DNA from: Chalara sp. BL73
Taxonomy: Eukaryota; Ascomycota; Leotiomycetes; Helotiales
DNA: 64,000 bases
Direction of reading: 5' to 3'
Assembly (NCBI GenBank): GCA_918026815.1
Contig: CAKJVC010000049.1
Span: 372,001-436,000 of the forward strand
Shown: in pieces, positions 8,501-61,022 of the stretch
Numbering within the stretch: position 1 is the first letter of the stretch
Layout: every line of letters begins with the position of its first letter
Program-made: the position numbers and the translations under genes
Notes under the pieces: generated by a model
Seen by the model: only the letters and a program-made list of their open reading frames with translations
The model's database searches: none
What the model was told of the DNA's origin: nothing

Positions 8501-9533
8501 AGGGATTGCAGGAGGGAGTTTAAGTAGCAGGTTGCTCCTTGATTCTTGAGTCCGGCAAAGCCGGTCTCTTTTTTAGAATCATAATTATGAAAGTTGTGCC
8601 ATAGAACTCCAGTCTCATCCTCGACAATGCGGACATAGGCAGTCATATTTGCCTCATCATTTTCCACTAATGGCCTGCCATGGCCTTCCCAGTTGTTGTG
8701 GAATAGCTTCCGCAATTCTACAAATCGCGTAAATCCCCAGTCCCCTTCTTCGCCTGTAAATCGGTGGTGAGCAGTATGGAAGTGGTATATCGTAGGATCC
8801 TTAGGGTTCCATAGGACCAGGGCAAACTGCACACAGCACACAAAATCATCCGGCGGTTTATCAGTAAATCCGTGCTCGAGATAGAACGAAGCTTGATCGA
8901 CAGAGTTTCCAGTTGGAAACATAAGAATACGCCTAGAAATATTAGCTCCATTCTCAAAAACGGGTACACATGTATAGCTCTACTAACCATGGGAATCCGC
9001 CAGCTTCGAAGACAGGCCCACGGGTCCTCCTCGGCAGTTTTCGCCAGTCCTTTATCTCCCAAGTATTTATGGTGTCCGATAATATGCGAGGCTGCTCTAG
9101 TAGGGGAGGGAGGACAGCCTCTTTCATAACCTCAACTATCAAGTATATTAGCAGATAGCAGATAGCAGCAACTGGGTCGACAGTCTTACATTCATCGGCA
9201 CGAGGTTTCTCTGATGGTGTCTCCAGATCTCCGTTAGACTGATCTAGGGTAATAATGGCAACATCGTCCTTCTCATTCTCGGATTCTCCGGTGTCCAGCA
9301 TGTGAGTGTCATTGGTCGCGTCCAACGATTGTATGTTTAAGCCATTCAAGTGGTCCTGCACATGATATATATTGTCAGAATTTAGGTATCTGCTGTGTGG
9401 CGGCGAGCGCTCGAATTTGTTTTGTCTGAAAGCCATAGGAGCCATGGTGGATGAGGTAACAATCTGCTATTTGGAGGGGAATGAGGGGCGATAGAAGTGG
9501 TTAAAGAGAAGACAAGCTACTCACGCTCGTCAT
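5541..9533 (-). CDS. UBP15: Ubiquitin carboxyl-terminal hydrolase of the USP7/Ubp15 type
   Basis: Cysteine deubiquitinase that removes ubiquitin from substrates. Domains in order: an acidic N-terminus; a MATH/TRAF domain (from INTWEIKDWRKLP to the NNWEGHGRPLVENDEA region, about residues 100-270); the USP catalytic domain with Cys box GLKNQGATCYLNSLLQ and His box NAGHYYAFIRPTIDGWFYRYDDD; then long USP7 C-terminal ubiquitin-like modules (LYRVLRQSTLQQL and YFRIMEGEKFSETKKRL regions). It ends FLGLDHVDKHRQLRN. At least seven exons, including about 9445-8954, 8922-8440, 8265-7462, 7372-6824, 6769-6116 and 6041-5541. The first exon is probably only three codons (ATG at 9533, donor GTGAGT, acceptor AATAG near 9460). 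Alternatively translation starts at the ATG at 9445. Both catalytic boxes are intact. Confidence 0.93.
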
Positions 9534-40461: not shown

Positions 40462-41643
40462 CTAAGGAAGGACTATGTACTTTTCAAGGTGTTTTGGAAT
40501 GGCATCAAGCAGTTTCTTTTCTGAAAGCCACTTTTTAGAGAACAACCTATCGGCATATCTATATGCTCCGTCGCAAAGAACAGTCACCACTGTATGTCCT
40601 TTGCCAAGCTTTTCCGCGACCTCTTTTGCCGCGGCCACATTCAAGCATGAACTAGCTCCAAGATACAATCCTTCTTCGTCTAAGCACCGATACACCATCT
40701 CTATGCTCTTTTCGTCACTTATATGGAGAGATCCATCTAACAAGTCGATATCTGGCTGCAAATTGTCGGTGACACGTCCTTGACCAATACCTTCTGTGAT
40801 ACTAGATCCTGAACGCTCAACTAGTTTTCCACCAGAGCTGATGTATGAATGTAACACACTTCCAGGTGGGTCAGCTAGATAGCATTTGACCTTCCCATCA
40901 GAAACTGACTTCAGGTAACGTGTCGTCCCTGCAAGAGTTCCGCCAGTTCCAGTCGCACAAGTGAAAGCATCGACATTTCCCTTTGTTTGTGCCCAAATCT
41001 CCGGGCCTGTAGTCTCGATGTGTGCTCTCCTATTAGCGATATTATCAAATTGGTTCGTCCATACTGCGTTCTCTAGGCGATCAGCGTGGCGCTTTGCTTG
41101 GTGATTATAGTTTTCCTGATTTTCAAATGCTACAGCTGGAACTGGGTAAACTTCAGCTCCAAGCAGCCTGAGCAGATCAATCTTTCCTTGTGATTGAGTG
41201 TTGGGCATATAGATGACCAGTTTGTAACCTTTCGATCTACAGACATGGGCGAGCCCAATTCCTGTGTTTCCAGCAGTCCCCTCAACCACGGTTCCTCCTG
41301 GCTTCAGCAACCCCCGTTCCTCGGCATCCTGGACCACAAAGAGCGCAGCTCGGTCTTTGATTGAGCCTCCTGGGTTCATAAATTCTGCTTTCCCAAGTAC
41401 TTCACAGCCGGTCACCTCAGAGATATGATTGAGGCGAATTAAAGGAGTGTTTCCGATTGCTATGGGATGTCAGAACTATCCCTCAATTGCTGTGGTAAAT
41501 AACAAACCTCCAGTAAGCCCTTTCACCACACCTTGAGTTTTGGAGACCGCAATTCCATACTGATTTGCACTCTCCATTTGCGCAACGGTCTCTGCAGCCC
41601 TCCATGCTGTCGTACCAAAGCGCCGTACGCCAGTCCTGAACAT
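40462..41643 (-). CDS. Mitochondrial cysteine synthase-like PLP enzyme
   Basis: O-acetylserine/cystathionine synthase fold (fold-type II PLP). The start is [20 protein letters not shown] at 41643, a likely mitochondrial presequence. An intron (GTTTGT...CCATAG, about 41462-41509) joins GVVKGLTG to [18 protein letters not shown]. The PLP lysine is in [12 protein letters not shown]. The substrate loop is [10 protein letters not shown] and the phosphate-binding loop is [11 protein letters not shown]. The [17 protein letters not shown] segment and the C-terminus [18 protein letters not shown] follow. The long C-terminal half resembles yeast Ygr012w/Mcy1 and fungal cysteine synthase 2, located at mitochondria, more than a classical O-acetylserine sulfhydrylase. 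Length about 377 residues, complete. Its first exon is present again at 50949-51099. Confidence 0.9.
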
Positions 41644-41889
41644 GGTTGGAATTAGTCGTGTGGTTGACTTCGCTGCCTTTCTTTAGCCAGCTTTAATGTC
41701 GCAATTCATTAGCATTTAGTGTGTGCAGGGGTGGCTTTATCATGCACCCCGATAAGATAGCATGGTGTGGTTTGTTTTGATGTCAACAGACGCGTCAACC
41801 TAAGACGAAGGTTGCATGGGACAACATCAACAAGATTATTATCACGACTTTGACCTGTAACGAAATAAGACGCGACTAATACGTTGATA
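41644..41889. promoter_or_regulatory. Divergent promoter, cysteine synthase and YCG1 (copy 1)
   Basis: 246 bp between starts. Repeated unchanged, as far as compared, at 51100-51345. Confidence 0.45.
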
Positions 41890-44800
41890 ATGCCCGCGCG
41901 AGTCTCAACGGCACGTTCTGCGAGAACCTCCACAGCAGTCTCGCGAAAAGGTTCTACTCAAACACTCAACTCCCGCGCCTCAACTGCCTCTAGGATTTCT
42001 GTACCCTATGTTGAAGTACCAGAAGAAACACCCGAGAATGAGCTTCGAACTCAGGTCTCATCTATTTTTCGCGATGCGCAAAGAACAACGGCCTCTCACA
42101 GAAAGCTTGTAATCAACCTACGAAAGATCCAGGAAGCTTGCTGCTATGAGCCCACAAGCAGCCATAAGAAGAAGACTGGCGCAGAAGATTTCGATGAAGA
42201 GCAGTTCACGTATGAGTTTACAAGATGCGTTCTCAGGGTTATGCCAGTGAAGAAGAGCGAGAGTGTAGGGGAAAGGTCGATTCGATTTATTGGTCTCTTT
42301 TTGCGCCATGCTAATGAAAAGGATGCTGAACTGGAAGAGGGAAACGAAGATGAGACTGGGATTATGGTTGAAAACCCAAGCACAAGACTTACATCCCATG
42401 TAATGTCCACAGTCTTACCACTCTTAACATCCAAAGAGAAGTTTGTCAGATACAGGTCAACACAACTGATTTCGCATATTATTAATTCTCTGGACTCGAT
42501 AGATGATGATCTCTTTCAGTTACTTCGACATGGACTTTTGAAGAGGATCCGGGATAAAGAAGCTATGGTCCGAGTTCAAGCAGTATTGGGACTTGGCCGG
42601 CTTGCTGGCAATGAAGCAGAGGGCGGGGCTGAAGATAGTGACGATGATGACTCCGGAGCTGGACTACTAGACAAACTTTTAGAAGTTCTGCAAAACGACC
42701 CGAGTGCTGATGTGCGGAGATCGCTTTTGGTTAACTTGCCGATACTGCCAGGCACATTGCCCTTTCTGCTAGAAAGAGCAAGAGACCAAGATCCCTTGAC
42801 TCGGCGAGCGCTTTATTCTCGGTTACTGCCTGCTTTAGGAGACTTCCGACATTTGTCACTATCTATGCGTGAGAAACTTCTCAGATGGGGACTCAGAGAC
42901 AGAGATGAGAATGTCCGCAAAGCCGCTGGAAAGCTATTCCGGGAAAGATGGATCGAGGATTGTGCCGGAACTGCTGAGCAAGAGACAGCGGAAGAAACAA
43001 AAGCTGCAAAAACTGATGCAAACCCCCCTAGCTTCGATGGCTTGCTAGAGCTTCTAGAACGTGTTGATGTGGTCAACTCTGGTGTCGAGAATGGGGTTGC
43101 GCTAGAAGCAATGAAAGGGTTCTGGGAGGGTCGTCCAGATTATCGAGACGCTGTGAATTTTGACGATAACTTCTGGAATACTCTGACTGCCGAAGCTGTT
43201 TTCATGGCAAGAAGCTTCAATGACTTTTGTAGAAGTGAGGGAAACGGCAAGTTTGAAGCGTTGCTCGAGGAAAAGATGCCAGAAGTCACCAAACTAGCCT
43301 TCTATCTAGATCGCTATATCTCGGTACTTGTAGCAGCTCTTAAGCGCGTTGCGATACAGGAAATCACGGAGGATGAAGAAGAAGAAGATACCGTCGAGCA
43401 GGAGTTCATCGTTGAGCAACTGCTTCATATGGCTCATACCCTTGACTATTCTGACGAAGTTGGACGCAGGAAGATGTTTGCTCTCTTGCGACAATCTCTG
43501 TCAGTACCAGACCTTCCAGAAGAGGTCACGAAACTCACTGTAGAGGTCTTGCGTGGGCTCTGTGCTCAGGATGCTGCAGGTGAAAGCGAGTTTACCAGCG
43601 TTGTTCTGGAAGCAGTCGCAGATGTTCATGATACCATTATGGATGAGCCTGCCTCGGAAATAGGAGAAGATGAGAGTTTCCACTCAGCGAGATCAGAAAT
43701 AAGCGGTGATAATACTCCAACAAGATCTAGCAATTCTAAGAACACCGAGACGACTGAAGAAGAGGATCAAGAGAAAGCTATTCGAGTCATCATGGTCAAC
43801 ATGAAATGCTTGCACATAGTTCAATGCATGCTAGAGAACGTTGAAGGGAACCTGCAGCAGAATCCTTCCTTGGTAGCTATGCTTAACAATTTGGTCGTGC
43901 CTGCAGTTCGAAGTCATGAGGCGCCGGTAAGAGAACGGGGACTTCTATGTCTAGGCCTTTGCTCTCTCCTAGACAAATCGCTCGCTGAAGAGAACCTAAC
44001 ACTGTTCATGCACTTCTTCTCCAAAGGACACTCAGCACTTCAAATAACGGCTCTCCAGATCCTCACTGATATCCTTAATCAGCATGGCGCTCATCTTCTT
44101 GACACTAATCCCACACTTCTCAAAGTATATCTTAAAGCTCTCAAGTCTGGTTCCAAAACCCCCGAAGTACAAGCTGCAGCTACTGTGGCTATTGCAAAAC
44201 TCATGCTTGGCCGCGTTATCTCCGATGCCTCGACAGCCATTGACGACTTACTTAGGACGCTGGTTGTTCTTTACTTTGACCCCAGCACCGCGCACAATCA
44301 AGGCGTACGACAGACGCTGTCCTATTTCCTTCCGGTATATAGCTTCAGCAGAAAGGAAAACCAGGACAGGATGAGGGAAAGTGGCTATGGATGCTCTACA
44401 CAAACTATTCGAGATCCAGGAGAACATTGATGATGATGGCGATGCTGAGGCGGATATGGTCTCCATCAGCACAATCGGAGCACATCTTGTAGACTGGACT
44501 GATCCACGGAAATGCTATGTCCCTGGGAACCAGCTCTCTTTCGCGGACGAAAACAAGAAAGCTGTTAATGGAGACGTACATTTGGACTTTGCAAAGGATA
44601 TTTTAGAGCGTTTGGAATCAGGCGTGAGCAGTAAGTTTCGTAGCCATTCTCTCGTAATAGAATGATATTTGAGCTGACAACTGAGAAGAAGAAGAAAAGA
44701 AGACAATCGCGCCTCTGCTTGGGAAACTCCACGTTTCTCCAGCATCAACAGAAGAAAAAATCCGTGAACTCTACCAAGAAGTTTCTTCAGCTATCGATAA

Positions 44801-45116
44801 CAAATTGATCGCAGATGCCACCGGCCGCAATGCACTCTTCAAGATCCACGTTAGTTTAGGCAAAATTGTCAATAATCTGACCGAAAAAGAATCTGGGGGC
44901 AGAAAGAGCAGTCCTGCGATCGATGATAAAACTGTTTTAACTGAAGTAGATGATGATGGCGACGCAAGTGATCATACAGTTGTAGACTCAACGAGGCGGG
45001 TCAAAAGTGAAGAAGTAGAAAACCCAACAATTATTACTGGTGATACAGATACAACTAAGGACTCTGTATTGGAGGAGCTACTGAGTGACGAAGATGTTGA
45101 GATGTCTGGGCTGTAA
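41890..45116 (+). CDS. YCG1: Condensin subunit CAP-G/Ycg1, copy 1 (one frame break)
   Basis: HEAT-repeat subunit of condensin, needed for mitotic chromosome compaction; works with the Smc2/Smc4, Brn1 and Ycs4 subunits. Start at 41890 (MPARVSTARSARTSTAVSRK). HEAT repeats run throughout (TSHVMSTVLPLLTSKEKFVR, RYRSTQLISHIINSLDSIDD, MVRVQAVLGLGRLAGNEAEG, DPSADVRRSLLVNLPIL). Acidic insert near residue 500 (TEDEEEEDTVEQE). An intron near 44630-44688 (GTAAGT...CTGAG) leads to a final exon ending DEDVEMSGL. In this copy the frame breaks at 44375-44377 (GGG, GG in copy 2) after QDRMR, giving a false stop at 44430. All other positions agree with an open frame. Probably a sequencing error rather than a pseudogene. 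Confidence 0.9.
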
Positions 45117-45676
45117 TATGTAACATGATTTGGGACTTGGTATTAAGAATCGGGTTGTATTTATGGCATTGTTATGATTAACAGTAATGAATTATGTCTC
45201 TTTATGCATGTCGGCTGTCTTCCAAGGTTGAATTTAGACTCCTGAAGTGTCTCAACTGCCGTAGACAAGCAGCAAGTTCTATTCACGGCATTCTTATGTC
45301 AAACTCTATAATTTTAAACTTTCTTTGAAATGCCCTCTCATTTCTACCCACGTATTCATCCCATTCAGGCGAACTATGGATGCTGATTCCTAAAAACTTC
45401 ACTGGTACCATCTCACAGATGGCAAGATATCCAAACCGGCTACAATTCTAATGTGGTCTATCCAATTATCTACAATTGGAGAAACCAAATCTATATACCC
45501 CTCAATGCGGCTAGTGCAAGAAGCACATGGCAGCTAGAGACGGCATATTCTATGCGTTCTGTAACATGGAAGCATGCTACCTCTTTCCTCAGACACCTTG
45601 TGGAACTTTACGCTACTACCGATCTCCTCACTTCCACTCCGTGACTGTGGCGTAGTCGTTGCTAGTGCTCCTATTA

Positions 45677-46198
45677 TCAAACGTCCTGACCGTCATTTGG
45701 CGCCTCCGTCTCAACATCAAAGTATTTATCCTTGAAATTAGCACTACACAATAACCACAAAGTATGCATTCCCATATCACATAATGTGGCCTTAACCATG
45801 CTCACAAATCCGGCCCAAACTTGTATGCGAGTCGTAAAAGCCTGAAGCCCAGTGCCCACCCTGATGACCCATTGCACGCTTGGATACCATAGCAGCAGGT
45901 CTTTTTCTCACCTGGCGCTTCGCTTGGTTTTTGTGTATCCGTTGGTGATGTTGAATCTGCGTGCGACGTCGCCTTGCTCATCAGGATCGGACTCGTCTCC
46001 AGGTCGAGATTGGGGGGCCAGGTATAGTGGGTCGTACCCTCCTTCTCATAGATTTGCGTGACGGCGTAGTGGCGACAGTGCCATTTGGTGGCTGTTGAGG
46101 TAGGCTCCGAGACGTAGGGTGGAGTTTGAGTCTGGGGCGGTGAGGAAGAGCGAGGGGATGAAGCTGATTATGTCATAGCAGTATTTATGATTCCGAGC
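45677..46198 (-). pseudogene. Unrecognised protein, frame broken (copy 1)
   Basis: Counterpart of 55130-55652. The same internal frame break is present. This copy also lacks one base near 45899 (GGTCTTTTTC against GGTCGTTTTTC), so MSKATSHADS and the downstream LLLWYPSVQWVIRVGTG fall in different frames. See the copy 2 entry for the protein. Confidence 0.35.
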
Positions 46199-47348
46199 CT
46201 ATGGGCCATTTTGAGAGTTTGTAGGATAAGATCACAGATGAGTTGCAAAGGTCAAAAGCTTAAAAAAATGCCCTGGGTGTGGGGCTGGTATTGAGAACTT
46301 TGTGGATTTCAGCTGTTGATAGCAAGATTAAGAGGTTGACCGAGCGTTAAATCTGATTTAGGATAAATAAAAGTCATATTCGCCTTCTTCGATGCATCTC
46401 ATATACTGGCACCATTATAGTCACCAAGGGTCATGATGAGAAGGCAGAACCATCAACAGTACATCGCTGTACAGCGGTATCACTGACATCTGTAGACTAA
46501 TATTCACCTTGAATCTTGCCATAGCTTCTATAAGGTAGCATCAACAAATACTCTTCAGCTGTTCAGAGTCAACTTAGGCCTCTGATCAAATAGCAAACCT
46601 TAATCGCTTAGTTACTGATCTCTCTACATCTCGTCAAGTTTTCTGCTGTGTGATTTGTAAGATGTGTTAGGAACCACTTTAAATCACAACGTCTGTGGGG
46701 GGGCCATATACAACAACATCTAGCCGGTTGGGGCTGAAATGCAGGGAAGTATTTTTGCTGGTGCTGAACAACTAAATCATTTCATTGGTACGTAATATAT
46801 GCTTCAAGTGTCCCTTAAGTACTATGGTGGTGGGAAAATCCGGCTGCTACCACTCCTAAAAACCTTGGCGCTGCTTATCAAAGGTTCTTCGATCAAGGCT
46901 GAGTATTGGAACTATGTTTTTGTTGTGGAGAATACTGTGACATCAATGCTTTGTGACTTCCAGGTGCATCGGAAGTGGAGGTTTCGAAAGTGGGTTAGCA
47001 CGTTAATTTCGAAGAGCTGAGCTTCATGGTCAGCGAGATGAGAGAATCGAGAGATAGTGATCAATGTATCTGGTAAGTTGCGGCATTGGGTGCTATGAAT
47101 ACTGACATTATCTCGATGTATCGTAAAATATGTCTTAGAGCATATTTTGGAAAGTCGAACTGACAGCTTACAGAAAGCCCGTGGGTTTTAACAATGCAAG
47201 GAAGAAATTTGACAGTACCCGACGATTATTCACCGCCGAAATAAAGGAGCATCGCTTATCCAATTGGGCCTAGCTATGTATAAAGAATTCATTAAGCACT
47301 TTGCATTTTAATCAAATCAAACAGAGTTTGTCTCCAAAACAAACATTT

Positions 47349-47597
47349 CCCAGAGCCCTGTCTGGGTGACCAAAGTTGTGGCATTTGGCGTAGCGAGCGT
47401 CACGGGAGGGGGAGATGGGCGAAAGAGGAAGCTGTGGGAAGACCCAGTACTCGAGTAGGCACGCCGTTGCGACTTTAAATAACCCACAGGGTTTTCTATG
47501 GGGTCCCCCGAGAGGGTGACCCCGGAGTTTTGCTGTTTGTGTGACCTGCGGGGACTCGATAATGTTCTTGTTTGCTGGGATCGAGTCAGATTATCGA
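47349..47597. ncRNA. Cluster of hairpins, possible structured RNA (copy 1)
   Basis: Four inverted repeats: CCCAGA/TCTGGG (47349-47366, 6-nt loop); AACCC-ACA-GGGTT (47481-47493); GGGGTC...GACCCC (47500-47523) with an inner CCC-GAGA-GGG, a GNRA-type tetraloop; and GACTCGAT/ATCGAGTC (47553-47560 with 47580-47587), which competes with TCGATAAT/ATTATCGA (47556-47563 with 47590-47597). Locally GC-rich in an AT-rich spacer. No known RNA family recognised. Strand and transcription unknown; could equally be protein-binding DNA. Confidence 0.3.
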
Positions 47598-48357
47598 CTT
47601 GGAAAGGAGAAAATCAATCAGGGCTTAGTAACCTTCTGAAATGAGCAGACTGAGGCAGCCGCTGGAACAAATCTCTATAGCTGCAGCAGCCGGAAGGCCG
47701 AGGGCCTGATTAAGCACAGAACAGAAGATGTGAGGTATAGTAGGAAAGAATGCTTTTTCAACGAAGTATTCCACAGATGAGAGCACTAATGCTTCGGTCT
47801 CTTGAGGGCAATTAGGATTCTGCAAGGCAGTTGTCCGAGGAGAAGGAGACGTAATATTAATTTTAATCACAAATTACGCATCTAATCAGGGAAAGCTAGT
47901 ATGCATCTCTTTGTATAACCCCATAGGCTTTAAAAATCAGGAGAGCTGCCAAAGCATCAGCGTAACACGTTTTGTTGGAGTAGCTCAGAAAGTAGGCTGG
48001 GGTGAGGCACCCACAATCTCCTCGCCACCCAAAAGATCAGATCTGCACAAGCAAATACACCAGAAAATCCAACAGCTATCCACCCCACAACCTTTGAATA
48101 CGAAACTAGGCTCAAGCCCAAAAGGAAGAATGCGCCAAGCTGCAAAACCTCAAGCACAAAACTTATCCCCGACACGCCAAACTGGAAGTCCCGCTTTTGC
48201 CAACAAGCCTTGTCTGATCGCATTTCGGTGGAAGTTTAGCAGATCACTGGACTACAGTCCACTTAATATCAAGGTCGAATTCCATACTGTGATATGATAT
48301 TGCAAGTTGAGTCTCTAATTTGTGATCTTACTATTCCTTCTAATGACCTGCCCGAGA

Positions 48358-50947
48358 CTATGATGCATATTCATCGATCACGCTTCTAGGCTTTTGAAAG
48401 TTCCAAGCGGGACGTATTTCTCATCCATCCCAAATCCTTGCGGGCCGCCAATTTCAATCCCTCTTGGTGTTGATGTCCATCGCTCGGAGGCGACTATACC
48501 AAGAACAAAAACGAGCAGGCCGTACCGATATTCAGGAGTGCCAATCGCCTCACCATTCTGCGAATCGATAACGCATATAAGGTCGGGTACTGATGCCAGC
48601 AGCTTGAAAAAGATGTCAGTCTAGAAGGTGTCAAACTTAGGTGAGCGAAGCATACCGTTTCTGTCCCACTGGCCGCCACTTTCACCGCCAAGATGTTTTC
48701 ATTCTTAAAAGGGGACCTTTTAGCGTCTTCTTTTCTGTCCGTCCGTCTCTGTCAATGCTTCAATGATCACTTCTCCATAGACATGACCCAACTTCAGGAG
48801 CCTATCAACGCCAACTATCTTCCCTCTAAATAGAACTTTAGCGGAGTCAGCGCCACCCACCTCACTAATAATTGCTTCTGCAACATTGTCGATATCATTT
48901 CTACTCCTTGAAAGAGCCACTGCTCTACCTATTCTCCATGACAAGGATATTGTGTGCTCAACAACCCATTTCTTGGTATTAACACCTGTTACTGGCCCTT
49001 TTGCACATGCAACATATGACCCTAGTTGTGAAAGTGCAGCGCGAAAGGTACGCTCAACCATTAATTCATTTTTTGCTTTTGTCACCAGCTAAACAACCTT
49101 AGTCTTAATCATTATGAACAATCTGCCAGAACCTTTTGCTCAAACTTACCATCGTATGGCCATTTCCATCACATATTGTTGAAGGAAGGAATGCAGGTTC
49201 TTTCTGAAATACTACAGGCGTAGTCTGCCATGCCACGGGGTACGCGCGCCCCATCCAGTCTCCATCCACAGTTGGCAGATTCATGTTTGTGGACGCGCCC
49301 AGAATCATGCCTTGCAAGCCATTGCCGCCTCCAATCTCGAGAGCAATGACAGCGTTTGGCTTGACTTTCATGTACTCGTATAGTTCGTTTTGCGACTCCA
49401 TCATTCTACAAACCATTAGTTCTAGTACTTCTGAGGATGAAGAGACACTTACTCATCTCCCGGGAGCTTCTCAATGGTTACTGTTGGGGATCCCTTCCTC
49501 CTCCACATGCTACAAGATCTGAGTCTTTCAAGTCGTCGGGCGAAATAACACGCACAACACCGCCTCTTCTCATAACTTCCCTGAGCCTGAGCATATGGCC
49601 GTATGGTGAACCCCCACCCCAGTACCGAGTATGTAGCATCCGATTGTGATCCAATCGAGGTCAATCTCTGAAATTAACCATTCTCGATTGACGATCTTAG
49701 GCCTATATGCAGCAACATCAAGTCTGTTGATATCAGGCACTTTGTCTGATGAAACGTAATGGCTCAGCTCTGGCTTTTCTACTCTGCCAAATTCTTTCAT
49801 TTCATCTTCGACATTCTCCTTAAGAAGTGTCTCAGTCGTAATACTAGTCTTCGTAAAGTCAAAATTGCCAACAGCTTTCACGATGAATCGCGACTTATTG
49901 GCAATGTACTACAAATATGTCAGGCATGGAATTGCAAAACGATTAGGCAACTAACTTGCAAGGGAATGCTGTCCATCTCTGCTATTTGCACTGTCTCTCG
50001 TAGGGCACCGTTCGCCACAGCTCGCTCAGTCGCTCGATCTGAGATCTCGTCAAGAATTTGGGCGGTAGTCTTACCCTCCGTATTCTCTATGGTGTCTATT
50101 ATACCGCTGACACGGGCTGTGGCGGCTCCGATGGCATTGGCGACACCAGCCCATTCCGGTTTGATAACCTTGCTCGCTCCTTTCAGTGTACCTGGGGCAA
50201 TCACAGCACCACCGCGCCAACTAACAAAACAGGAATATCGCTAGCTGAAGTCTTCATCGTATCAATGATGTTCTCTAACATTTCTGCTACTTTGGCTTGA
50301 AATTCCAGGATGCCACTCTCTAGTTCTGAGCCGATAATTAATTTGCGGTCCCCAATGTTTGCTTCGGGATATCCGAGCACAGCATAATCCGTCGTGGTAG
50401 GCACAGAACCACCAAATACTAGAGCTCTTTCTTGTATATCATATCCCACGCTATCTGGACCAATTGTCATACGACCATTTGCGTCCCGGCGAACGATCGA
50501 TCCGCCTCCCAAACCAATGCTCTTTACATCCGGGTAAGAGAAGTTCGTCCTAACGCCTGCAACCTCACTGAAGGCAGCAGCTTGACGTGGGAAACCGTTC
50601 GCCAAAAGCAGCCCAACGTCCGTTGTAGTTCCACCAATGTCTACGACCATCATAGCCTCCTTGAGCTTATTCTGGGTAAGGAAAGCTGCTCCCCTCATAC
50701 TATTTGTGGGCCCAGAAGAGAAAGTACGAATAGGCAATCGAGCAGCAGCACTTGCAAGCAAGATGGTTCCATCATTCTGAGTTAGGAAGACTGGGCATCG
50801 AAGTCCTAACTGAACAATGGCTTGTTGAAAGGATCTGATTGTCCGACGAGCAAATGGCAGGATCGACGCATTCAAGATTGCAGCGTTCTCACGTTCCAAG
50901 AATCCAAGATTTGCCACATCTTTTGACATAAACTATGTCAGCATCTG
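48358..50947 (-). CDS. Hydantoinase/oxoprolinase + DUF917, copy 1 (5' truncated, frame breaks)
   Basis: Same gene as 57813-61022 but cut off at the repeat edge. The first about 190 residues of the HyuA domain are missing, and the readable part starts just before MSKDVANLGFLERENAAILN. Indels relative to copy 2 break the frame at about 50214 (GCGCC against GCC), 49612 (a C fewer), 49494 (a C fewer), 48708-48730 (several) and 48392 (a T fewer). Copy 2 is open at each. The pattern is that of a poor-quality contig end, not of decay. Confidence 0.85.
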
Positions 50948-50948
50948 T

Positions 50949-51099
50949 TAAATAACAAACCTCCAGTAAGAAGCCCTTTCACCACACCTTGAGTTTTGGA
51001 GACCGCAATTCCATACTGATTTGCACTCTCCATTTGCGCAACGGTCTCTGCAGCCCTCCATGCTGTCGTACCAAAGCGCCGTACGCCAGTCCTGAACAT
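50949..51099 (-). pseudogene. First exon of the cysteine synthase gene, duplicated fragment
   Basis: Repeats the presequence exon ([20 protein letters not shown] to the intron donor) but nothing downstream of it. The sequence upstream in the gene direction (below 50948) is hydantoinase. A 3-base insertion (TAAGAAGCCC against TAAGCCC) distinguishes it from 41509. It cannot make an enzyme. Confidence 0.9.
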
Positions 51100-51345
51100 G
51101 GTTGGAATTAGTCGTGTGGTTGACTTCGCTGCCTTTCTTTAGCCAGCTTTAATGTCGCAATTCATTAGCATTTAGTGTGTGCAGGGGTGGCTTTATCATG
51201 CACCCCGATAAGATAGCATGGTGTGGTTTGTTTTGATGTCAACAGACGCGTCAACCTAAGACGAAGGTTGCATGGGACAACATCAACAAGATTATTATCA
51301 CGACTTTGACCTGTAACGAAATAAGACGCGACTAATACGTTGATA

Positions 51346-54300
51346 ATGCCCGCGCGAGTCTCAACGGCACGTTCTGCGAGAACCTCCACAGCAGTCTCGC
51401 GAAAGGTTCTACTCAAACACTCAACTCCCGCGCCTCAACTGCCTCTAGGATTTCTGTACCCTATGTTGAAGTACCAGAAGAAACACCCGAGAATGAGCTT
51501 CGAACTCAGGTCTCATCTATTTTTCGCGATGCGCAAAGAACAACGGCCTCTCACAGAAAGCTTGTAATCAACCTACGAAAGATCCAGGAAGCTTGCTGCT
51601 ATGAGCCCACAAGCAGCCATAAGAAGAAGACTGGCGCAGAAGATTTCGATGAAGAGCAGTTCACGTATGAGTTTACAAGATGCGTTCTCAGGGTTATGCC
51701 AGTGAAGAAGAGCGAGAGTGTAGAGGGAAAGGTCGATTCGATTTATTGGTCTCTTTTGCGCCATGCTAATGAAAAGGATGCTGAACTGGAAGAGGGAAAC
51801 GAAGATGAGACTGGGATTATGGTTGAAAACCCAAGCACAAGACTTACATCCCATGTAATGTCCACAGTCTTACCACTCTTAACATCCAAAGAGAAGTTTG
51901 TCAGATACAGGTCAACACAACTGATTTCGCATATTATTAATTCTCTGGACTCGATAGATGATGATCTCTTTCAGTTACTTCGACATGGACTTTTGAAGAG
52001 GATCCGGGATAAAGAAGCTATGGTCCGAGTTCAAGCAGTATTGGGACTTGGCCGGCTTGCTGGCAATGAAGCAGAGGGCGGGGCTGAAGATAGTGACGAT
52101 GATGACTCCGGAGCTGGACTACTAGACAAACTTTTAGAAGTTCTGCAAAACGACCCGAGTGCTGATGTGCGGAGATCGCTTTTGGTTAACTTGCCGATAC
52201 TGCCAGGCACATTGCCCTTTCTGCTAGAAAGAGCAAGAGACCAAGATCCCTTGACTCGGCGAGCGCTTTATTCTCGGTTACTGCCTGCTTTAGGAGACTT
52301 CCGACATTTGTCACTATCTATGCGTGAGAAACTTCTCAGATGGGGACTCAGAGACAGAGATGAGAATGTCCGCAAAGCCGCTGGAAAGCTATTCCGGGAA
52401 AGATGGATCGAGGATTGTGCCGGAACTGCTGAGCAAGAGACAGCGGAAGAAACAAAAGCTGCAAAAACTGATGCAAACCCCCTAGCTTCGATGGCTTGCT
52501 AGAGCTTCTAGAACGTGTTGATGTGGTCAACTCTGGTGTCGAGAATGGGGTTGCGCTAGAAGCAATGAAAGGGTTCTGGGAGGGTCGTCCAGATTATCGA
52601 GACGCTGTGAATTTTGACGATAACTTCTGGAATACTCTGACTGCCGAAGCTGTTTTCATGGCAAGAAGCTTCAATGACTTTTGTAGAAGTGAGGGAAACG
52701 GCAAGTTTGAAGCGTTGCTCGAGGAAAAGATGCCAGAAGTCACCAAACTAGCCTTCTATCTAGATCGCTATATCTCGGTACTTGTAGCAGCTCTTAAGCG
52801 CGTTGCGATACAGGAAATCACGGAGGATGAAGAAGAAGAAGATACCGTCGAGCAGGAGTTCATCGTTGAGCAACTGCTTCATATGGCTCATACCCTTGAC
52901 TATTCTGACGAAGTTGGACGCAGGAAGATGTTTGCTCTCTTGCGACAATCTCTGTCAGTACCAGACCTTCCAGAAGAGGTCACGAAACTCACTGTAGAGG
53001 TCTTGCGTGGGCTCTGTGCTCAGGATGCTGCAGGTGAAAGCGAGTTTACCAGCGTTGTTCTGGAAGCAGTCGCAGATGTTCATGATACCATTATGGATGA
53101 GCCTGCCTCGGAAATAGGAGAAGATGAGAGTTTCCACTCAGCGAGATCAGAAATAAGCGGTGATAATACTCCAACAAGATCTAGCAATTCTAAGAACACC
53201 GAGACGACTGAAGAAGAGGATCAAGAGAAAGCTATTCGAGTCATCATGGTCAACATGAAATGCTTGCACATAGTTCAATGCATGCTAGAGAACGTTGAAG
53301 GGAACCTGCAGCAGAATCCTTCCTTGGTAGCTATGCTTAACAATTTGGTCGTGCCTGCAGTTCGAAGTCATGAGGCGCCGGTAAGAGAACGGGGACTTCT
53401 ATGTCTAGGCCTTTGCTCTCTCCTAGACAAATCGCTCGCTGAAGAGAACCTAACACTGTTCATGCACTTCTTCTCCAAAGGACACTCAGCACTTCAAATA
53501 ACGGCTCTCCAGATCCTCACTGATATCCTTAATCAGCATGGCGCTCATCTTCTTGACACTAATCCCACACTTCTCAAAGTATATCTTAAAGCTCTCAAGT
53601 CTGGTTCCAAAACCCCCGAAGTACAAGCTGCAGCTACTGTGGCTATTGCAAAACTCATGCTTGGCCGCGTTATCTCCGATGCCTCGACAGCCATTGACGA
53701 CTTACTTAGGACGCTGGTTGTTCTTTACTTTGACCCCAGCACCGCGCACAATCAAGGCGTACGACAGACGCTGTCCTATTTCCTTCCGGTATATAGCTTC
53801 AGCAGAAAGGAAAACCAGGACAGGATGAGGAAAGTGGCTATGGATGCTCTACACAAACTATTCGAGATCCAGGAGAACATTGATGATGATGGCGATGCTG
53901 AGGCGGATATGGTCTCCATCAGCACAATCGGAGCACATCTTGTAGACTGGACTGATCCACGGAAATGCTATGTCCCTGGGAACCAGCTCTCTTTCGCGGA
54001 CGAAAACAAGAAAGCTGTTAATGGAGACGTACATTTGGACTTTGCAAAGGATATTTTAGAGCGTTTGGAATCAGGCGTGAGCAGTAAGTTTCGTAGCCAT
54101 TCTCTCGTAATAGAATGATATTTGAGCTGACAACTGAGAAGAAGAAGAAAAGAAGACAATCGCGCCTCTGCTTGGGAAACTCCACGTTTCTCCAGCATCA
54201 ACAGAAGAAAAAATCCGTGAACTCTACCAAGAAGTTTCTTCAGCTATCGATAACAAATTGATCGCAGATGCCACCGGCCGCAATGCACTCTTCAAGATCC

Positions 54301-54568
54301 ACGTTAGTTTAGGCAAAATTGTCAATAATCTGACCGAAAAGAATCTGGGGGCAGAAAGAGCAGTCCTGCGATCGATGATAAAACTGTTTTAACTGAAGTA
54401 GATGATGATGGCGACGCAAGTGATCATACAGTTGTAGACTCAACGAGGCGGGTCAAAAGTGAAGAAGTAGAAAACCCAACAATTATTACTGGTGATACAG
54501 ATACAACTAAGGACTCTGTATTGGAGGAGCTACTGAGTGACGAAGATGTTGAGATGTCTGGGCTGTAA
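51346..54568 (+). CDS. YCG1: Condensin subunit CAP-G/Ycg1, copy 2 (several frame breaks)
   Basis: Same gene as 41890-45116. The frame is broken by a missing A at 51402-51404 (AAA against AAAA), a compensating pair at about 51724 and 51753 that turns SIRFIGLFLRHANE into VDSIYWSLLRHANE, a missing C near 52480 (CCCCC against CCCCCC), and a missing A near 54340. Copy 1 is correct at all of these. Copy 2 in turn is correct at 53829-53830, where copy 1 breaks. The long frame 52496-54118 carries the C-terminal two thirds. Treat both copies as one gene. Confidence 0.9.
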
Positions 54569-55129
54569 TATGTAACATGATTTGGGACTTGGTATTAAGA
54601 ATCGGGTTGTATTTATGGCATTGTTATGATTAACAGTAATGAATTATGTCTCTTTATGCATGTCGGCTGTCTTCCAAGGTTGAATTTAGACTCCTGAAGT
54701 GTCTCAACTGCCGTAGACAAGCAGCAAGTTCTATTCACGGCATTCTTATGTCAAACTCTATAATTTTAAACTTTCTTTGAAATGCCCTCTCATTTCTACC
54801 CACGTATTCATCCCATTCAGGCGAACTATGGATGCTGATTCCTAAAAACTTCACTGGTACCATCTCACAGATGGCAAGATATCCAAACCGGCTACAATTC
54901 TAATGTGGTCTATCCAATTATCTACAATTGGAGAAACCAAATCTATATACCCCTCAATGCGGCTAGTGCAAGAAGCACATGGCAGCTAGAGACGGCATAT
55001 TCTATGCGTTCTGTAACATGGAAGCATGCTACCTCTTTCCTCAGACACCTTGTGGAACTTTTACGCTACTACCGATCTCCTCACTTCCACTCCGTGACTG
55101 TGGCGTAGTCGTTGCTAGTGCTCCTATTA

Positions 55130-55652
55130 TCAAACGTCCTGACCGTCATTTGGCGCCTCCGTCTCAACATCAAAGTATTTATCCTTGAAATTAGCACTAC
55201 ACAATAACCACAAAGTATGCATTCCCATATCACATAATGTGGCCTTAACCATGCTCACAAATCCGGCCCAAACTTGTATGCGAGTCGTAAAAGCCTGAAG
55301 CCCAGTGCCCACCCTGATGACCCATTGCACGCTTGGATACCATAGCAGCAGGTCGTTTTTCTCACCTGGCGCTTCGCTTGGTTTTTGTGTATCCGTTGGT
55401 GATGTTGAATCTGCGTGCGACGTCGCCTTGCTCATCAGGATCGGACTCGTCTCCAGGTCGAGATTGGGGGGCCAGGTATAGTGGGTCGTACCCTCCTTCT
55501 CATAGATTTGCGTGACGGCGTAGTGGCGACAGTGCCATTTGGTGGCTGTTGAGGTAGGCTCCGAGACGTAGGGTGGAGTTTGAGTCTGGGGCGGTGAGGA
55601 AGAGCGAGGGGATGAAGCTGATTATGTCATAGCAGTATTTATGATTCCGAGC
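55130..55652 (-). pseudogene. Unrecognised protein, probable frame break (copy 2)
   Basis: From a possible acceptor CATAG at 55653-55654 the frame reads NHKYCYDIISFIPSLFLTAP, then SNSTLRLGAYLNSHQ. About 20 codons later the coding-like text continues in another frame (KWHCRHYAVTQIYEKEG, THYTWPPNLDLETSPILM). This runs through MSKATSHADSTSPTDTQ and YPSVQWVIRVGTGLQAFTTR to QDV at 55130. Two bases seem to be missing near CACCAAATGG. Both copies have the same state there, so it is not specific to one contig. No first exon was found. It may be a pseudogene or a mis-modelled intron. Family not recognised. Confidence 0.35.
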
Positions 55653-56802
55653 CTATGGGCCATTTTGAGAGTTTGTAGGATAAGATCACAGATGAGTTGC
55701 AAAGGTCAAAAGCTTAAAAAAATGCCCTGGGTGTGGGGCTGGTATTGAGAACTTTGTGGATTTCAGCTGTTGATAGCAAGATTAAGAGGTTGACCGAGCG
55801 TTAAATCTGATTTAGGATAAATAAAAGTCATATTCGCCTTCTTCGATGCATCTCATATACTGGCACCATTATAGTCACCAAGGGTCATGATGAGAAGGCA
55901 GAACCATCAACAGTACATCGCTGTACAGCGGTATCACTGACATCTGTAGACTAATATTCACCTTGAATCTTGCCATAGCTTCTATAAGGTAGCATCAACA
56001 AATACTCTTCAGCTGTTCAGAGTCAACTTAGGCCTCTGATCAAATAGCAAACCTTAATCGCTTAGTTACTGATCTCTCTACATCTCGTCAAGTTTTCTGC
56101 TGTGTGATTTGTAAGATGTGTTAGGAACCACTTTAAATCACAACGTCTGTGGGGGGGCCATATACAACAACATCTAGCCGGTTGGGGCTGAAATGCAGGG
56201 AAGTATTTTTGCTGGTGCTGAACAACTAAATCATTTCATTGGTACGTAATATATGCTTCAAGTGTCCCTTAAGTACTATGGTGGTGGGAAAATCCGGCTG
56301 CTACCACTCCTAAAAACCTTGGCGCTGCTTATCAAAGGTTCTTCGATCAAGGCTGAGTATTGGAACTATGTTTTTGTTGTGGAGAATACTGTGACATCAA
56401 TGCTTTGTGACTTCCAGGTGCATCGGAAGTGGAGGTTTCGAAAGTGGGTTAGCACGTTAATTTCGAAGAGCTGAGCTTCATGGTCAGCGAGATGAGAGAA
56501 TCGAGAGATAGTGATCAATGTATCTGGTAAGTTGCGGCATTGGGTGCTATGAATACTGACATTATCTCGATGTATCGTAAAATATGTCTTAGAGCATATT
56601 TTGGAAAGTCGAACTGACAGCTTACAGAAAGCCCGTGGGTTTTAACAATGCAAGGAAGAAATTTGACAGTACCCGACGATTATTCACCGCCGAAATAAAG
56701 GAGCATCGCTTATCCAATTGGGCCTAGCTATGTATAAAGAATTCATTAAGCACTTTGCATTTTAATCAAATCAAACAGAGTTTGTCTCCAAAACAAACAT
56801 TT

Positions 56803-57051
56803 CCCAGAGCCCTGTCTGGGTGACCAAAGTTGTGGCATTTGGCGTAGCGAGCGTCACGGGAGGGGGAGATGGGCGAAAGAGGAAGCTGTGGGAAGACCCA
56901 GTACTCGAGTAGGCACGCCGTTGCGACTTTAAATAACCCACAGGGTTTTCTATGGGGTCCCCCGAGAGGGTGACCCCGGAGTTTTGCTGTTTGTGTGACC
57001 TGCGGGGACTCGATAATGTTCTTGTTTGCTGGGATCGAGTCAGATTATCGA
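56803..57051. ncRNA. Cluster of hairpins, possible structured RNA (copy 2)
   Basis: Repeat of 47349-47597 with all the same inverted repeats. The GAGA-loop hairpin starts at 56954. Confidence 0.3.
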
Positions 57052-57812
57052 CTTGGAAAGGAGAAAATCAATCAGGGCTTAGTAACCTTCTGAAATGAGC
57101 AGACTGAGGCAGCCGCTGGAACAAATCTCTATAGCTGCAGCAGCCGGAAGGCCGAGGGCCTGATTAAGCACAGAACAGAAGATGTGAGGTATAGTAGGAA
57201 AGAATGCTTTTTCAACGAAGTATTCCACAGATGAGAGCACTAATGCTTCGGTCTCTTGAGGGCAATTAGGATTCTGCAAGGCAGTTGTCCGAGGAGAAGG
57301 AGACGTAATATTAATTTTAATCACAAATTACGCATCTAATCAGGGAAAGCTAGTATGCATCTCTTTGTATAACCCCATAGGCTTTAAAAATCAGGAGAGC
57401 TGCCAAAGCATCAGCGTAACACGTTTTGTTGGAGTAGCTCAGAAAGTAGGCTGGGGTGAGGCACCCACAATCTCCTCGCCACCCAAAAGATCAGATCTGC
57501 ACAAGCAAATACACCAGAAAATCCAACAGCTATCCACCCCACAACCTTTGAATACGAAACTAGGCTCAAGCCCAAAAGGAAGAATGCGCCAAGCTGCAAA
57601 ACCTCAAGCACAAAACTTATCCCCGACACGCCAAACTGGAAGTCCCGCTTTTTGCCAACAAGCCTTGTCTGATCGCATTTCGGTGGAAGTTTAGCAGATC
57701 ACTGGACTACAGTCCACTTAATATCAAGGTCGAATTCCATACTGTGATATGATATTGCAAGTTGAGTCTCTAATTTGTGATCTTACTATTCCTTCTAATG
57801 ACCTGCCCGAGA

Positions 57813-60800
57813 CTATGATGCATATTCATCGATCACGCTTCTAGGCTTTTTGAAAGTTCCAAGCGGGACGTATTTCTCATCCATCCCAAATCCTTGCGGG
57901 CCGCCAATTTCAATCCCTCTTGGTGTTGATGTCCATCGCTCGGAGGCGACTATACCAAGAACAAAAACGAGCAGGCCGTACCGATATTCAGGAGTGCCAA
58001 TCGCCTCACCATTCTGCGAATCGATAACGCATATAAGGTCGGGTACTGATGCCAGCAGCTTGAAAAAGATGTCAGTCTAGAAGGTGTCAAACTTAGGTGA
58101 GCGAAGCATACCGTTTCTGTCCCACTGGCCGCCACTTTCACCGCCAAGATGTTTTCATTCTTAAAGGGGACCTTTAGCGTCTCTTTCTGTCCGTCCGTCT
58201 CTGTCAATGCTTCAATGATCACTTCTCCATAGACATGACCCAACTTCAGGAGCCTATCAACGCCAACTATCTTCCCTCTAAATAGAACTTTAGCGGAGTC
58301 AGCGCCACCCACCTCACTAATAATTGCTTCTGCAACATTGTCGATATCATTTCTACTCCTTGAAAGAGCCACTGCTCTACCTATTCTCCATGACAAGGAT
58401 ATTGTGTGCTCAACAACCCATTTCTTGGTATTAACACCTGTTACTGGCCCTTTTGCACATGCAACATATGACCCTAGTTGTGAAAGTGCAGCGCGAAAGG
58501 TACGCTCAACCATTAATTCATTTTTTGCTTTTGTCACCAGCTAAACAACCTTAGTCTTAATCATTATGAACAATCTGCCAGAACCTTTTGCTCAAACTTA
58601 CCATCGTATGGCCATTTCCATCACATATTGTTGAAGGAAGGAATGCAGGTTCTTTCTGAAATACTACAGGCGTAGTCTGCCATGCCACGGGGTACGCGCG
58701 CCCCATCCAGTCTCCATCCACAGTTGGCAGATTCATGTTTGTGGACGCGCCCAGAATCATGCCTTGCAAGCCATTGCCGCCTCCAATCTCGAGAGCAATG
58801 ACAGCGTTTGGCTTGACTTTCATGTACTCGTATAGTTCGTTTTGCGACTCCATCATTCTACAAACCATTAGTTCTAGTACTTCTGAGGATGAAGAGACAC
58901 TTACTCATCTCCCGGGAGCTTCTCAATGGTTACTGTTGGGGATCCCTTCCCTCCTCCACATGCTACAAGATCTGAGTCTTTCAAGTCGTCGGGCGAAATA
59001 ACACGCACAACACCGCCTCTTCTCATAACTTCCCTGAGCCTGAGCATATGGCCGTATGGTGAACCCCCACCCCCAGTACCGAGTATGTAGCATCCGATTG
59101 TGATCCAATCGAGGTCAATCTCTGAAATTAACCATTCTCGATTGACGATCTTAGGCCTATATGCAGCAACATCAAGTCTGTTGATATCAGGCACTTTGTC
59201 TGATGAAACGTAATGGCTCAGCTCTGGCTTTTCTACTCTGCCAAATTCTTTCATTTCATCTTCGACATTCTCCTTAAGAAGTGTCTCAGTCGTAATACTA
59301 GTCTTCGTAAAGTCAAAATTGCCAACAGCTTTCACGATGAATCGCGACTTATTGGCAATGTACTACAAATATGTCAGGCATGGAATTGCAAAACGATTAG
59401 GCAACTAACTTGCAAGGGAATGCTGTCCATCTCTGCTATTTGCACTGTCTCTCGTAGGGCACCGTTCGCCACAGCTCGCTCAGTCGCTCGATCTGAGATC
59501 TCGTCAAGAATTTGGGCGGTAGTCTTACCCTCCGTATTCTCTATGGTGTCTATTATACCGCTGACACGGGCTGTGGCGGCTCCGATGGCATTGGCGACAC
59601 CAGCCCATTCCGGTTTGATAACCTTGCTCGCTCCTTTCAGTGTACCTGGGGCAATCACAGCACCACCGCCAACTAACAAAACAGGAATATCGCTAGCTGA
59701 AGTCTTCATCGTATCAATGATGTTCTCTAACATTTCTGCTACTTTGGCTTGAAATTCCAGGATGCCACTCTCTAGTTCTGAGCCGATAATTAATTTGCGG
59801 TCCCCAATGTTTGCTTCGGGATATCCGAGCACAGCATAATCCGTCGTGGTAGGCACAGAACCACCAAATACTAGAGCTCTTTCTTGTATATCATATCCCA
59901 CGCTATCTGGACCAATTGTCATACGACCATTTGCGTCCCGGCGAACGATCGATCCGCCTCCCAAACCAATGCTCTTTACATCCGGGTAAGAGAAGTTCGT
60001 CCTAACGCCTGCAACCTCACTGAAGGCAGCAGCTTGACGTGGGAAACCGTTCGCCAAAAGCAGCCCAACGTCCGTTGTAGTTCCACCAATGTCTACGACC
60101 ATCATAGCCTCCTTGAGCTTATTCTGGGTAAGGAAAGCTGCTCCCCTCATACTATTTGTGGGCCCAGAAGAGAAAGTACGAATAGGCAATCGAGCAGCAG
60201 CACTTGCAAGCAAGATGGTTCCATCATTCTGAGTTAGGAAGACTGGGCATCGAAGTCCTAACTGAACAATGGCTTGTTGAAAGGATCTGATTGTCCGACG
60301 AGCAAATGGCAGGATCGACGCATTCAAGATTGCAGCGTTCTCACGTTCCAAGAATCCAAGATTTGCCACATCTTTTGACATAACTATGTCAGCATCTGGA
60401 TAAAGCTCTCGGACAACTTTGGCTGCGTGCTCTTCCTGTTGAGCGACCATGTCAACAGGACTGAACACTCCATTAATCACAATGCTTTTAATGCCTTTGG
60501 TCTTTATTATCTGGCACTGCTTCTTGATCTCCTCCTCTTCAACGTCAGCAATTGGGCTTCCATCCACCTCCACTCCCCCAGACACGCGGCAATGATAAGC
60601 GCAGATCAAGTTTCTCAGCTTAACAGGCCAGTCAATACCAGGATCTACACCTTTGGAGAAAGGTCCGCAGAGTCGAATGACAGCAACTTTTGCGAGTCGT
60701 GCGCGATCCATCTCAACAACGGCATTTATGAAATGTGTAGTTCCAATTGTCACACTAGCCACATGTGCAGGGCTTATATATCCTTTTGAGAACATTGCAG

Positions 60801-61022
60801 TGATAGTGCTGTTAATGCCCTCGCTCGGGTTTCCCGTCGTTCGCGCTTTGTGCCATGCTAAAATTCCTCGATTTTGCTCAGAAGATCGACTGGGATCGAG
60901 GATCACTCCATCCGTATTCGTCCTGTTAAGTATCATGTTAATTTTCAACTCCTCTTAATGGGACTATTTTGTCATGTGACTTACCCGCCAACATCTACTC
61001 CAATTCTCAAGTTTGGCCCCAT
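57813..61022 (-). CDS. Hydantoinase/oxoprolinase (HyuA) fused to DUF917, complete copy
   Basis: ATP-dependent lactam hydrolase family acting on 5-oxoproline, hydantoins or related rings. The start is ATG at 61022: MGPNLRIGVDVGG, then intron GGCGG|GTAAGT...AACAG, giving the phosphate-binding motif GVDVGGTNTDGVILDPS. HyuA continues with GTTHFINAVVEMDRARLAKV, then SSGPTNSMRGAAFLTQ, VVDIGGTTTDVGLLLANG and VGGGAVIAPGTLKGASKV, to about residue 540. Exon 2 ends near 59410. The C-terminal DUF917 part has FTKTSITTETLLKENVEDEM, LDWITIGCYILGTGGGGSPY, NAVIALEIGGGNGLQGMILG and IGGPQGFGMDEKYVPLGTF, ending VIDEYAS. Introns lie near 58890, 58545 and 58085. No HyuB partner is needed in this fungal architecture. 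Divergent from an NCS1 permease. All frames open. Confidence 0.9.

Follow-up and report, generated by a model that had tools for sequence, protein, structure and literature searches.

The 64,000-base window analysed here (C44:372001-436000, the whole stretch of DNA under study) belongs to a contig of 928,781 bases in the Chalara sp. BL73 assembly, which comprises 58.66 Mb in 199 contigs. It contains a 9.45-kb direct repeat that is very probably a false duplication of one locus, namely the unmerged overlap of two assembly pieces that were set end to end. The first-pass annotation had interpreted the repeat as an overlap of contigs, and this interpretation is now supported on new grounds: the errors of the two copies are polarized toward their junction (Fisher p 0.0009-0.015), and the four contig starts searched in the same assembly are redundant. 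The parts of the repeat are as follows:

41496..50947: copy 1; frame errors near 48394, 48710-48740, 49494-49499, 49619-49621, 50214-50218 and 50932, with an exception near 44377.
50948..50948: single T between the copies, by direct reading.
50949..60398: copy 2; frame errors near 51401, 51723, 51758, 52474 and 54337, and a 3-base insertion at 50971-50973.

Comparison of the window with itself by blastn listed this repeat only, 41493-50947 against 50946-60398 in direct orientation (9465 columns, 99.76% identity, one mismatch, 22 gap columns). Differences between the copies were counted by alignment with a linear gap cost, and both methods confirmed the earlier description of 41496-50947 and 50949-60398 as a single sequence in two head-to-tail copies with one base between them. 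The copies differ by 19 indel events amounting to 22 bases (17 of one base, one of 2 bases and one of 3 bases), a density of 2 per kb; the number first given, about eighteen, was within one event, while the sizes have to be corrected from 1-4 to 1-3 bases. Substitutions are absent within the repeat, as had been claimed for the parts compared earlier, and nothing resembling one occurs except at the boundary base, G at 41495 and T at 50948, the latter of which would most simply be one wrong terminal base of either piece. Homopolymers of at least three bases contain 14 of the 17 single-base indels, in line with the earlier observation that most indels lie in such runs, which make up 16% of the bases of copy 1. 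Differences that are restricted to indels and biased to homopolymers have, by all appearance, the spectrum of long-read errors and not that of mutations. In the whole assembly, the first 1 kb of the repeat matches two places, both within the repeat of the window. That the copies end in mid-gene had been regarded as a sign of contig ends; such ends do not discriminate, since any tandem duplication, real or false, predicts them, and they were therefore dropped as evidence.

The left half of the repeat is occupied by YCG1, which encodes condensin subunit 3 and is essential in yeasts, and the right half by most of a hydantoinase A / S-Me-THD gene. A cysteine synthase gene extends into the repeat from the left flank:

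41890..45113, plus strand: YCG1 / condensin subunit 3 (Cnd3), copy 1, in blocks 41890-44635 and 44688-45113, with one frameshift near 44377; Pfam Cnd3, alignment with P0121 (see below), condensin subunit 3 in PDB.
51346..54565, plus strand: YCG1, copy 2, with five frameshifts, all at most 3.4 kb from the junction.
48364..50947, minus strand: hydantoinase A and S-Me-THD gene, copy 1, lacking the N-terminal portion; the aligned exon blocks contain frameshifts at five places, and the frame is cut at 50932.
57819..60954, minus strand: hydantoinase / S-Me-THD gene, copy 2, extending into the right flank; Pfam PF05378, PF01968, PF06032 and PF20906.
40462..41469, minus strand: main exon of cysteine synthase, in the left flank; Pfam PALP, cysteine synthases in PDB.

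The first exon of the cysteine synthase gene seems to lie within the repeat, at about 41505-41630 in copy 1 (limits read by eye), and to recur in copy 2 without the remaining gene. Eight matches to YCG1 were listed in its own assembly, all of them in the two copies. The top match among outside proteins was the condensin subunit P0121 of Bisporella sp. PMI_857 (1055 amino acids; 99% over 97% of the query), and Bisporella is placed in the Helotiales, Leotiomycetes. Twelve amino-acid differences from P0121 are common to both YCG1 copies (exon edges left out); the window is thus from a close relative and does not carry the identical sequence. PMC10734572, in which PMI_857 is mentioned, deals with gene clusters and has no bearing on the repeat.

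To determine which copy is wrong at each indel, breaks of the reading frames were placed by tblastn and frameshift-aware protein alignment against outside proteins. Compared with P0121, YCG1 has one break in copy 1, a +1 shift near 44377, and five breaks in copy 2, near 51401, 51723, 51758, 52474 and 54337. The hydantoinase exon blocks were aligned to the proteins P0043, P0113 and P0111. In copy 2, all five exon blocks tested (57810-60398) are free of frameshifts, the last of them aligning well only with P0113; copy 1 is broken near 50214, 49619 and 49494-49497. In addition, copy 1 carries a net shift, located differently by the three proteins, in a cluster of four single-base differences at 48710-48740, and a break near 48394 that was seen with P0113 only, the sole protein aligning well in that place. 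At 50932 an extra base interrupts the frame of copy 1, as seen from the open reading frames (ORFs), and the alignments stop at 50926-50929, whereas in copy 2 they continue to 60387-60396. When the first exon of the cysteine synthase was read by eye, the 3-base insertion at 50971-50973 appeared to be an error of copy 2. Altogether, 15 of the 19 indels shift a protein frame of a conserved gene in one copy, and the erring copy could be assigned at 16 (15 by protein frame, one by eye). For a 163-amino-acid ORF at 55130-55621 the homologue search was empty at E 0.001 (13 candidates), so that the indel 45902/55355 stays outside the assigned set. Neither YCG1 copy is intact as printed, whereas P0121 of the relative aligns end to end; some of the copy differences must therefore be sequence errors. 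Errors are certainly present whichever reading holds, with or without a real duplication beneath them.

Two further details of these genes were observed. Copy 1 of YCG1 has one more difference from P0121, at residue 378 (N for K), where the frame of copy 2 is broken, and given this difference copy 1 may be wrong too in the AAACCCCC run at 43023-43028 (52478-52483 in copy 2). Between two hydantoinase exon blocks, a stop codon common to both copies lies in the read-through frame at 58537-58611 of copy 2 and at the same place in copy 1; this stretch is probably an intron.

The 16 assigned errors are not spread evenly over the copies. Six of those in the left half of the repeat fall in copy 2 and one in copy 1, and in the right half nine fall in copy 1 and none in copy 2 (Fisher p 0.00087). 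Fifteen of the 16 are located in the junction-side half of their own copy, at most 4.7 kb from the junction, the closest being 15 and 23 bases away. Stricter grouping of the events gave p values of 0.0020 without the 3-base event, 0.0047 when the four-indel cluster was counted as one, and 0.015 when events were further collapsed. Two thinly covered piece ends that meet tail to head would produce this polarity. In quality, the right end of copy 1 resembles the poor right-hand terminus of an assembly piece lying to the left, and the left end of copy 2 the poor left-hand terminus of a piece lying to the right; the rise of errors that an overlap predicts toward both of these ends was found, with the exception of 44377.

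These observations can be combined in a scenario in which two pieces of the assembly, whether contigs, unitigs or long-read layouts, would have overlapped by about 9.45 kb. Built from few and noisy long reads, their ends would have contained homopolymer indels, on account of which the overlap would have gone unrecognised. Scaffolding, gap filling or contig joining may afterwards have placed the pieces in direct succession, leaving one stray base between them. What we infer here is that read depth was low at the ends, that long reads were used, that a joining step took place and that the chromosome carries the locus once.

The assembly was also searched for further redundancy with 5-kb queries from the starts of C44, C2, C199 and C1; the starts of C3 and C100, which carry telomere repeats, and of C150, which has a subtelomeric repeat in common with C3, were left out, as were right-hand contig ends. 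For each of these four starts, a near-identical second locus was found on a different contig. C44:1-5000 corresponds to C11:56877-61886, C2:1-5000 to C10:431695-436697 (minus strand), and C199:1-5000 to C86:18551-23555, its first 4 kb corresponding also to C94:25535-29521 (minus strand). C1:1-5000 is found at C3:1871207-1876214 in the same orientation, at C4:409-5411 and partly at the start of C5. Two of the overlaps reach at least 10 kb, since C44:1-10000 matches C11:56877-66879 almost identically and C199:1-10000 matches C86:18551-28543. Two interior 5-kb controls had a high-identity match to themselves only, one of them with an additional 65% match of about 300 bases; they were substituted for a 16-kb control search from the left flank, which missed even its own locus and was not used.

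The matched places differ in their position. C11, C10 and C86 extend well beyond them, and the starts of C44, C2 and C199 fall inside these other contigs. The match of C1 lies about 5 kb from the end of C3 (1,881,163 bases), a position that suggests an unmerged overlap of contig ends reaching at most about 10 kb, of which the first 5 kb were compared; C1/C3 is the only searched pair placed like an end-to-end overlap. The bit scores of the contig-start overlaps fit mostly-indel differences at about 1-4 per kb, compared with 2 per kb between the copies of the window, a solution that is not unique, as substitutions could replace some gaps, and for the C199:5001-10000 overlap the score arithmetic gave no exact solution with single-base indels. 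Redundancy at all four starts suggests that the assembly size of 58.66 Mb is inflated.

Some features of the contig starts stand by themselves. At the start of C44, this contig and C11 are either in conflict or redundant. C1:1-5000 contains a dispersed element with 156 matches in the assembly (fragments counted), several of 98-99% and many of about 75%. The first 110-130 bases or so of C3 and C100 consist of CCCTAA-type telomere repeats. A search of the genome for 5.8S rRNA found none among the 39 of 1911 candidates that were scored.

In a self-comparison of 288 kb of C44 and six other contig starts (matches of at least 200 bases), no other long near-identical direct repeat was detected; the remaining matches were a 235-base tandem pair in C44 at 82%, an inverted repeat in C150, and a pair formed by the starts of C3 and C150. 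In this last pair (C3, 157-3849; C150, 1-3680), 418 of the 467 mismatches over 3.7 kb are transitions and the TpA/ApT ratio is high, which is a signature of the repeat-induced point mutation (RIP) type; the repeat is subtelomeric, and its C3 member adjoins the telomere repeats. Between the copies in the window, the full alignment contains no C-to-T or G-to-A change, and the RIP indices of both copies (0.73/1.35) are similar to those of the window (0.75/1.34). The argument from RIP made in the first-pass annotation holds insofar as one RIP-type pair occurs elsewhere and no such change separates the copies; it is weak, however, and proves little, because RIP needs meiosis. Its absence counts weakly against a duplication that is old or has passed through meiosis, whereas a very young one would be compatible with it.

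A real 9.45-kb tandem duplication of YCG1 and most of the hydantoinase / S-Me-THD gene, carried by all or some nuclei, would have to be so recent, perhaps having arisen in culture or in some nuclei, that it is free of substitutions and escaped RIP, and we consider it very unlikely. If it were present in all nuclei, a blunt junction with one untemplated base would be expected to give the same geometry (two native outer junctions, one new junction, one added base), and the indels, which taken alone are compatible with this explanation, would be uncorrected errors from ambiguous read mapping. Reads over the junction would, however, anchor and correct both copies in exactly the zone where 15 of the 16 assigned errors are found. 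Furthermore, the absence of substitutions in 9.45 kb, compared with the 12 shared YCG1 differences from the closest relative, would make the duplication extremely young, and the copies lack RIP-type changes though the pair elsewhere in the assembly has them. A natural mutation spectrum was not seen between the copies (no substitutions, and 19 indel events of which 15 shift the frame of a conserved gene), and a duplication too young for mutation would lack it likewise. Taken together, a real duplication in all nuclei is very unlikely.

If only part of the nuclei in the culture carried the duplication (a heterokaryon or a subclone), junction reads would be few and the consensus poor on both sides, and the same error gradient toward the junction could arise as from two contig ends. 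This explanation requires an extra event, while the redundant contig starts already suggest that overlaps were kept unmerged in this assembly, and we regard it as highly improbable. A single chimeric long read, in which two molecules of one locus were joined in library preparation or by read splitting and which bridged the assembly, is extremely unlikely, as two fragments of the same locus would be needed in one read; it would also give a stray-base junction with poor consensus around it, and the repeat would still be artefactual, with gene counts affected in the same way.

Several points weigh against the unmerged overlap. The evidence for it comes from assembled sequence. The repeat lies in the middle of a 929-kb contig and the join contains no N, the window being composed of A, C, G and T only. 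Three of the 19 indels (45610, 45902 and 48199) fall outside testable coding sequence and remain without assignment, the four indels of the 48710-48734 cluster were assigned as a block in which the net shift alone is visible, and one of the 16 events was assigned by eye. The copy-1 error at 44377, 6.6 kb from the junction, runs contrary to the gradient. The redundancy of the contig starts, sampled at four of seven starts and at no right-hand end, demonstrates unmerged sequence but not the joining step. The starts of C44, C2 and C199 match the insides of long contigs and could partly be real duplications, and the start of C1 is rich in dispersed repeats. The gradient within the overlaps is mixed, since from the first to the second 5 kb the implied differences fall in C44/C11 and rise in C199/C86. 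Finally, the repeat is unique of its type in 288 kb of C44, which gives no indication that end-to-end joins within contigs are frequent.

The background of frameshifts in the flanks was viewed through Pfam matches, which were examined for 20 of the 27 ORFs of at least 150 amino acids located there; four more were covered by the general Pfam scan. This check has little force, since a selection of long ORFs favours unbroken ones. Among the flank genes is a USP7-like ubiquitin protease gene on the minus strand (5544-9466) with Pfam UCH and USP7 domains over several ORFs; in places where a single domain is divided over adjacent ORFs, the gaps of about 40-50 bases look like introns.

If the repeat is an unmerged overlap, the locus would carry one YCG1 gene, one hydantoinase / S-Me-THD gene and one first exon of the cysteine synthase, and the contig would be about 9.45 kb too long. 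Counts of two YCG1 or two hydantoinase genes, or the claim of a young RIP-free duplication at this place, are then probably false, and the result is a caution more than a discovery. The error-polarity test, in which protein frames identify the wrong copy and errors are examined for a rise toward the junction from both sides, is of help in telling unmerged contig ends from real tandem duplications where reads are lacking, and other draft assemblies could be examined in the same way.

Unmerged dovetail overlaps between contigs are a general kind of redundancy in long-read assemblies. The repeat resembles them in its length of about 9.5 kb and in its indel-only differences, which increase toward both piece ends, and the C1/C3 match is a possible parallel. 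Unlike in a dovetail overlap, both ends are here within one contig, so that a join without merging must have followed. With a recent tandem segmental duplication the repeat has in common the head-to-tail arrangement with one new junction; it differs in the concentration of errors at the junction, the absence of substitutions and a YCG1 gene that is broken in both copies. Ko et al. (2022; PMC9516828) describe homotype false duplications as under-collapsed sequence that results from accumulated errors, particularly in long reads. According to the same report, false duplications are most often separated by a gap and sometimes by unsupported sequence, and same-scaffold cases account for 7-24% of total false duplications in earlier assemblies and 61-92% in newer ones (PMC9516828). 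Those cases are from vertebrates and were classified by read depth, whereas here the classification uses sequence alone and one extra base instead of an N run separates the copies. The likeness to a homotype false duplication lies in near-identical copies, on the same scaffold and mistakable for gene gains, that are kept apart by (long-)read errors and not by alleles (PMC9516828): the copies in the window share their 12 amino-acid differences from the YCG1 protein of the relative and differ by 19 indel events, 15 of which are frame-shifting, and by no internal substitution, as expected of sequencing errors rather than allelic variants.

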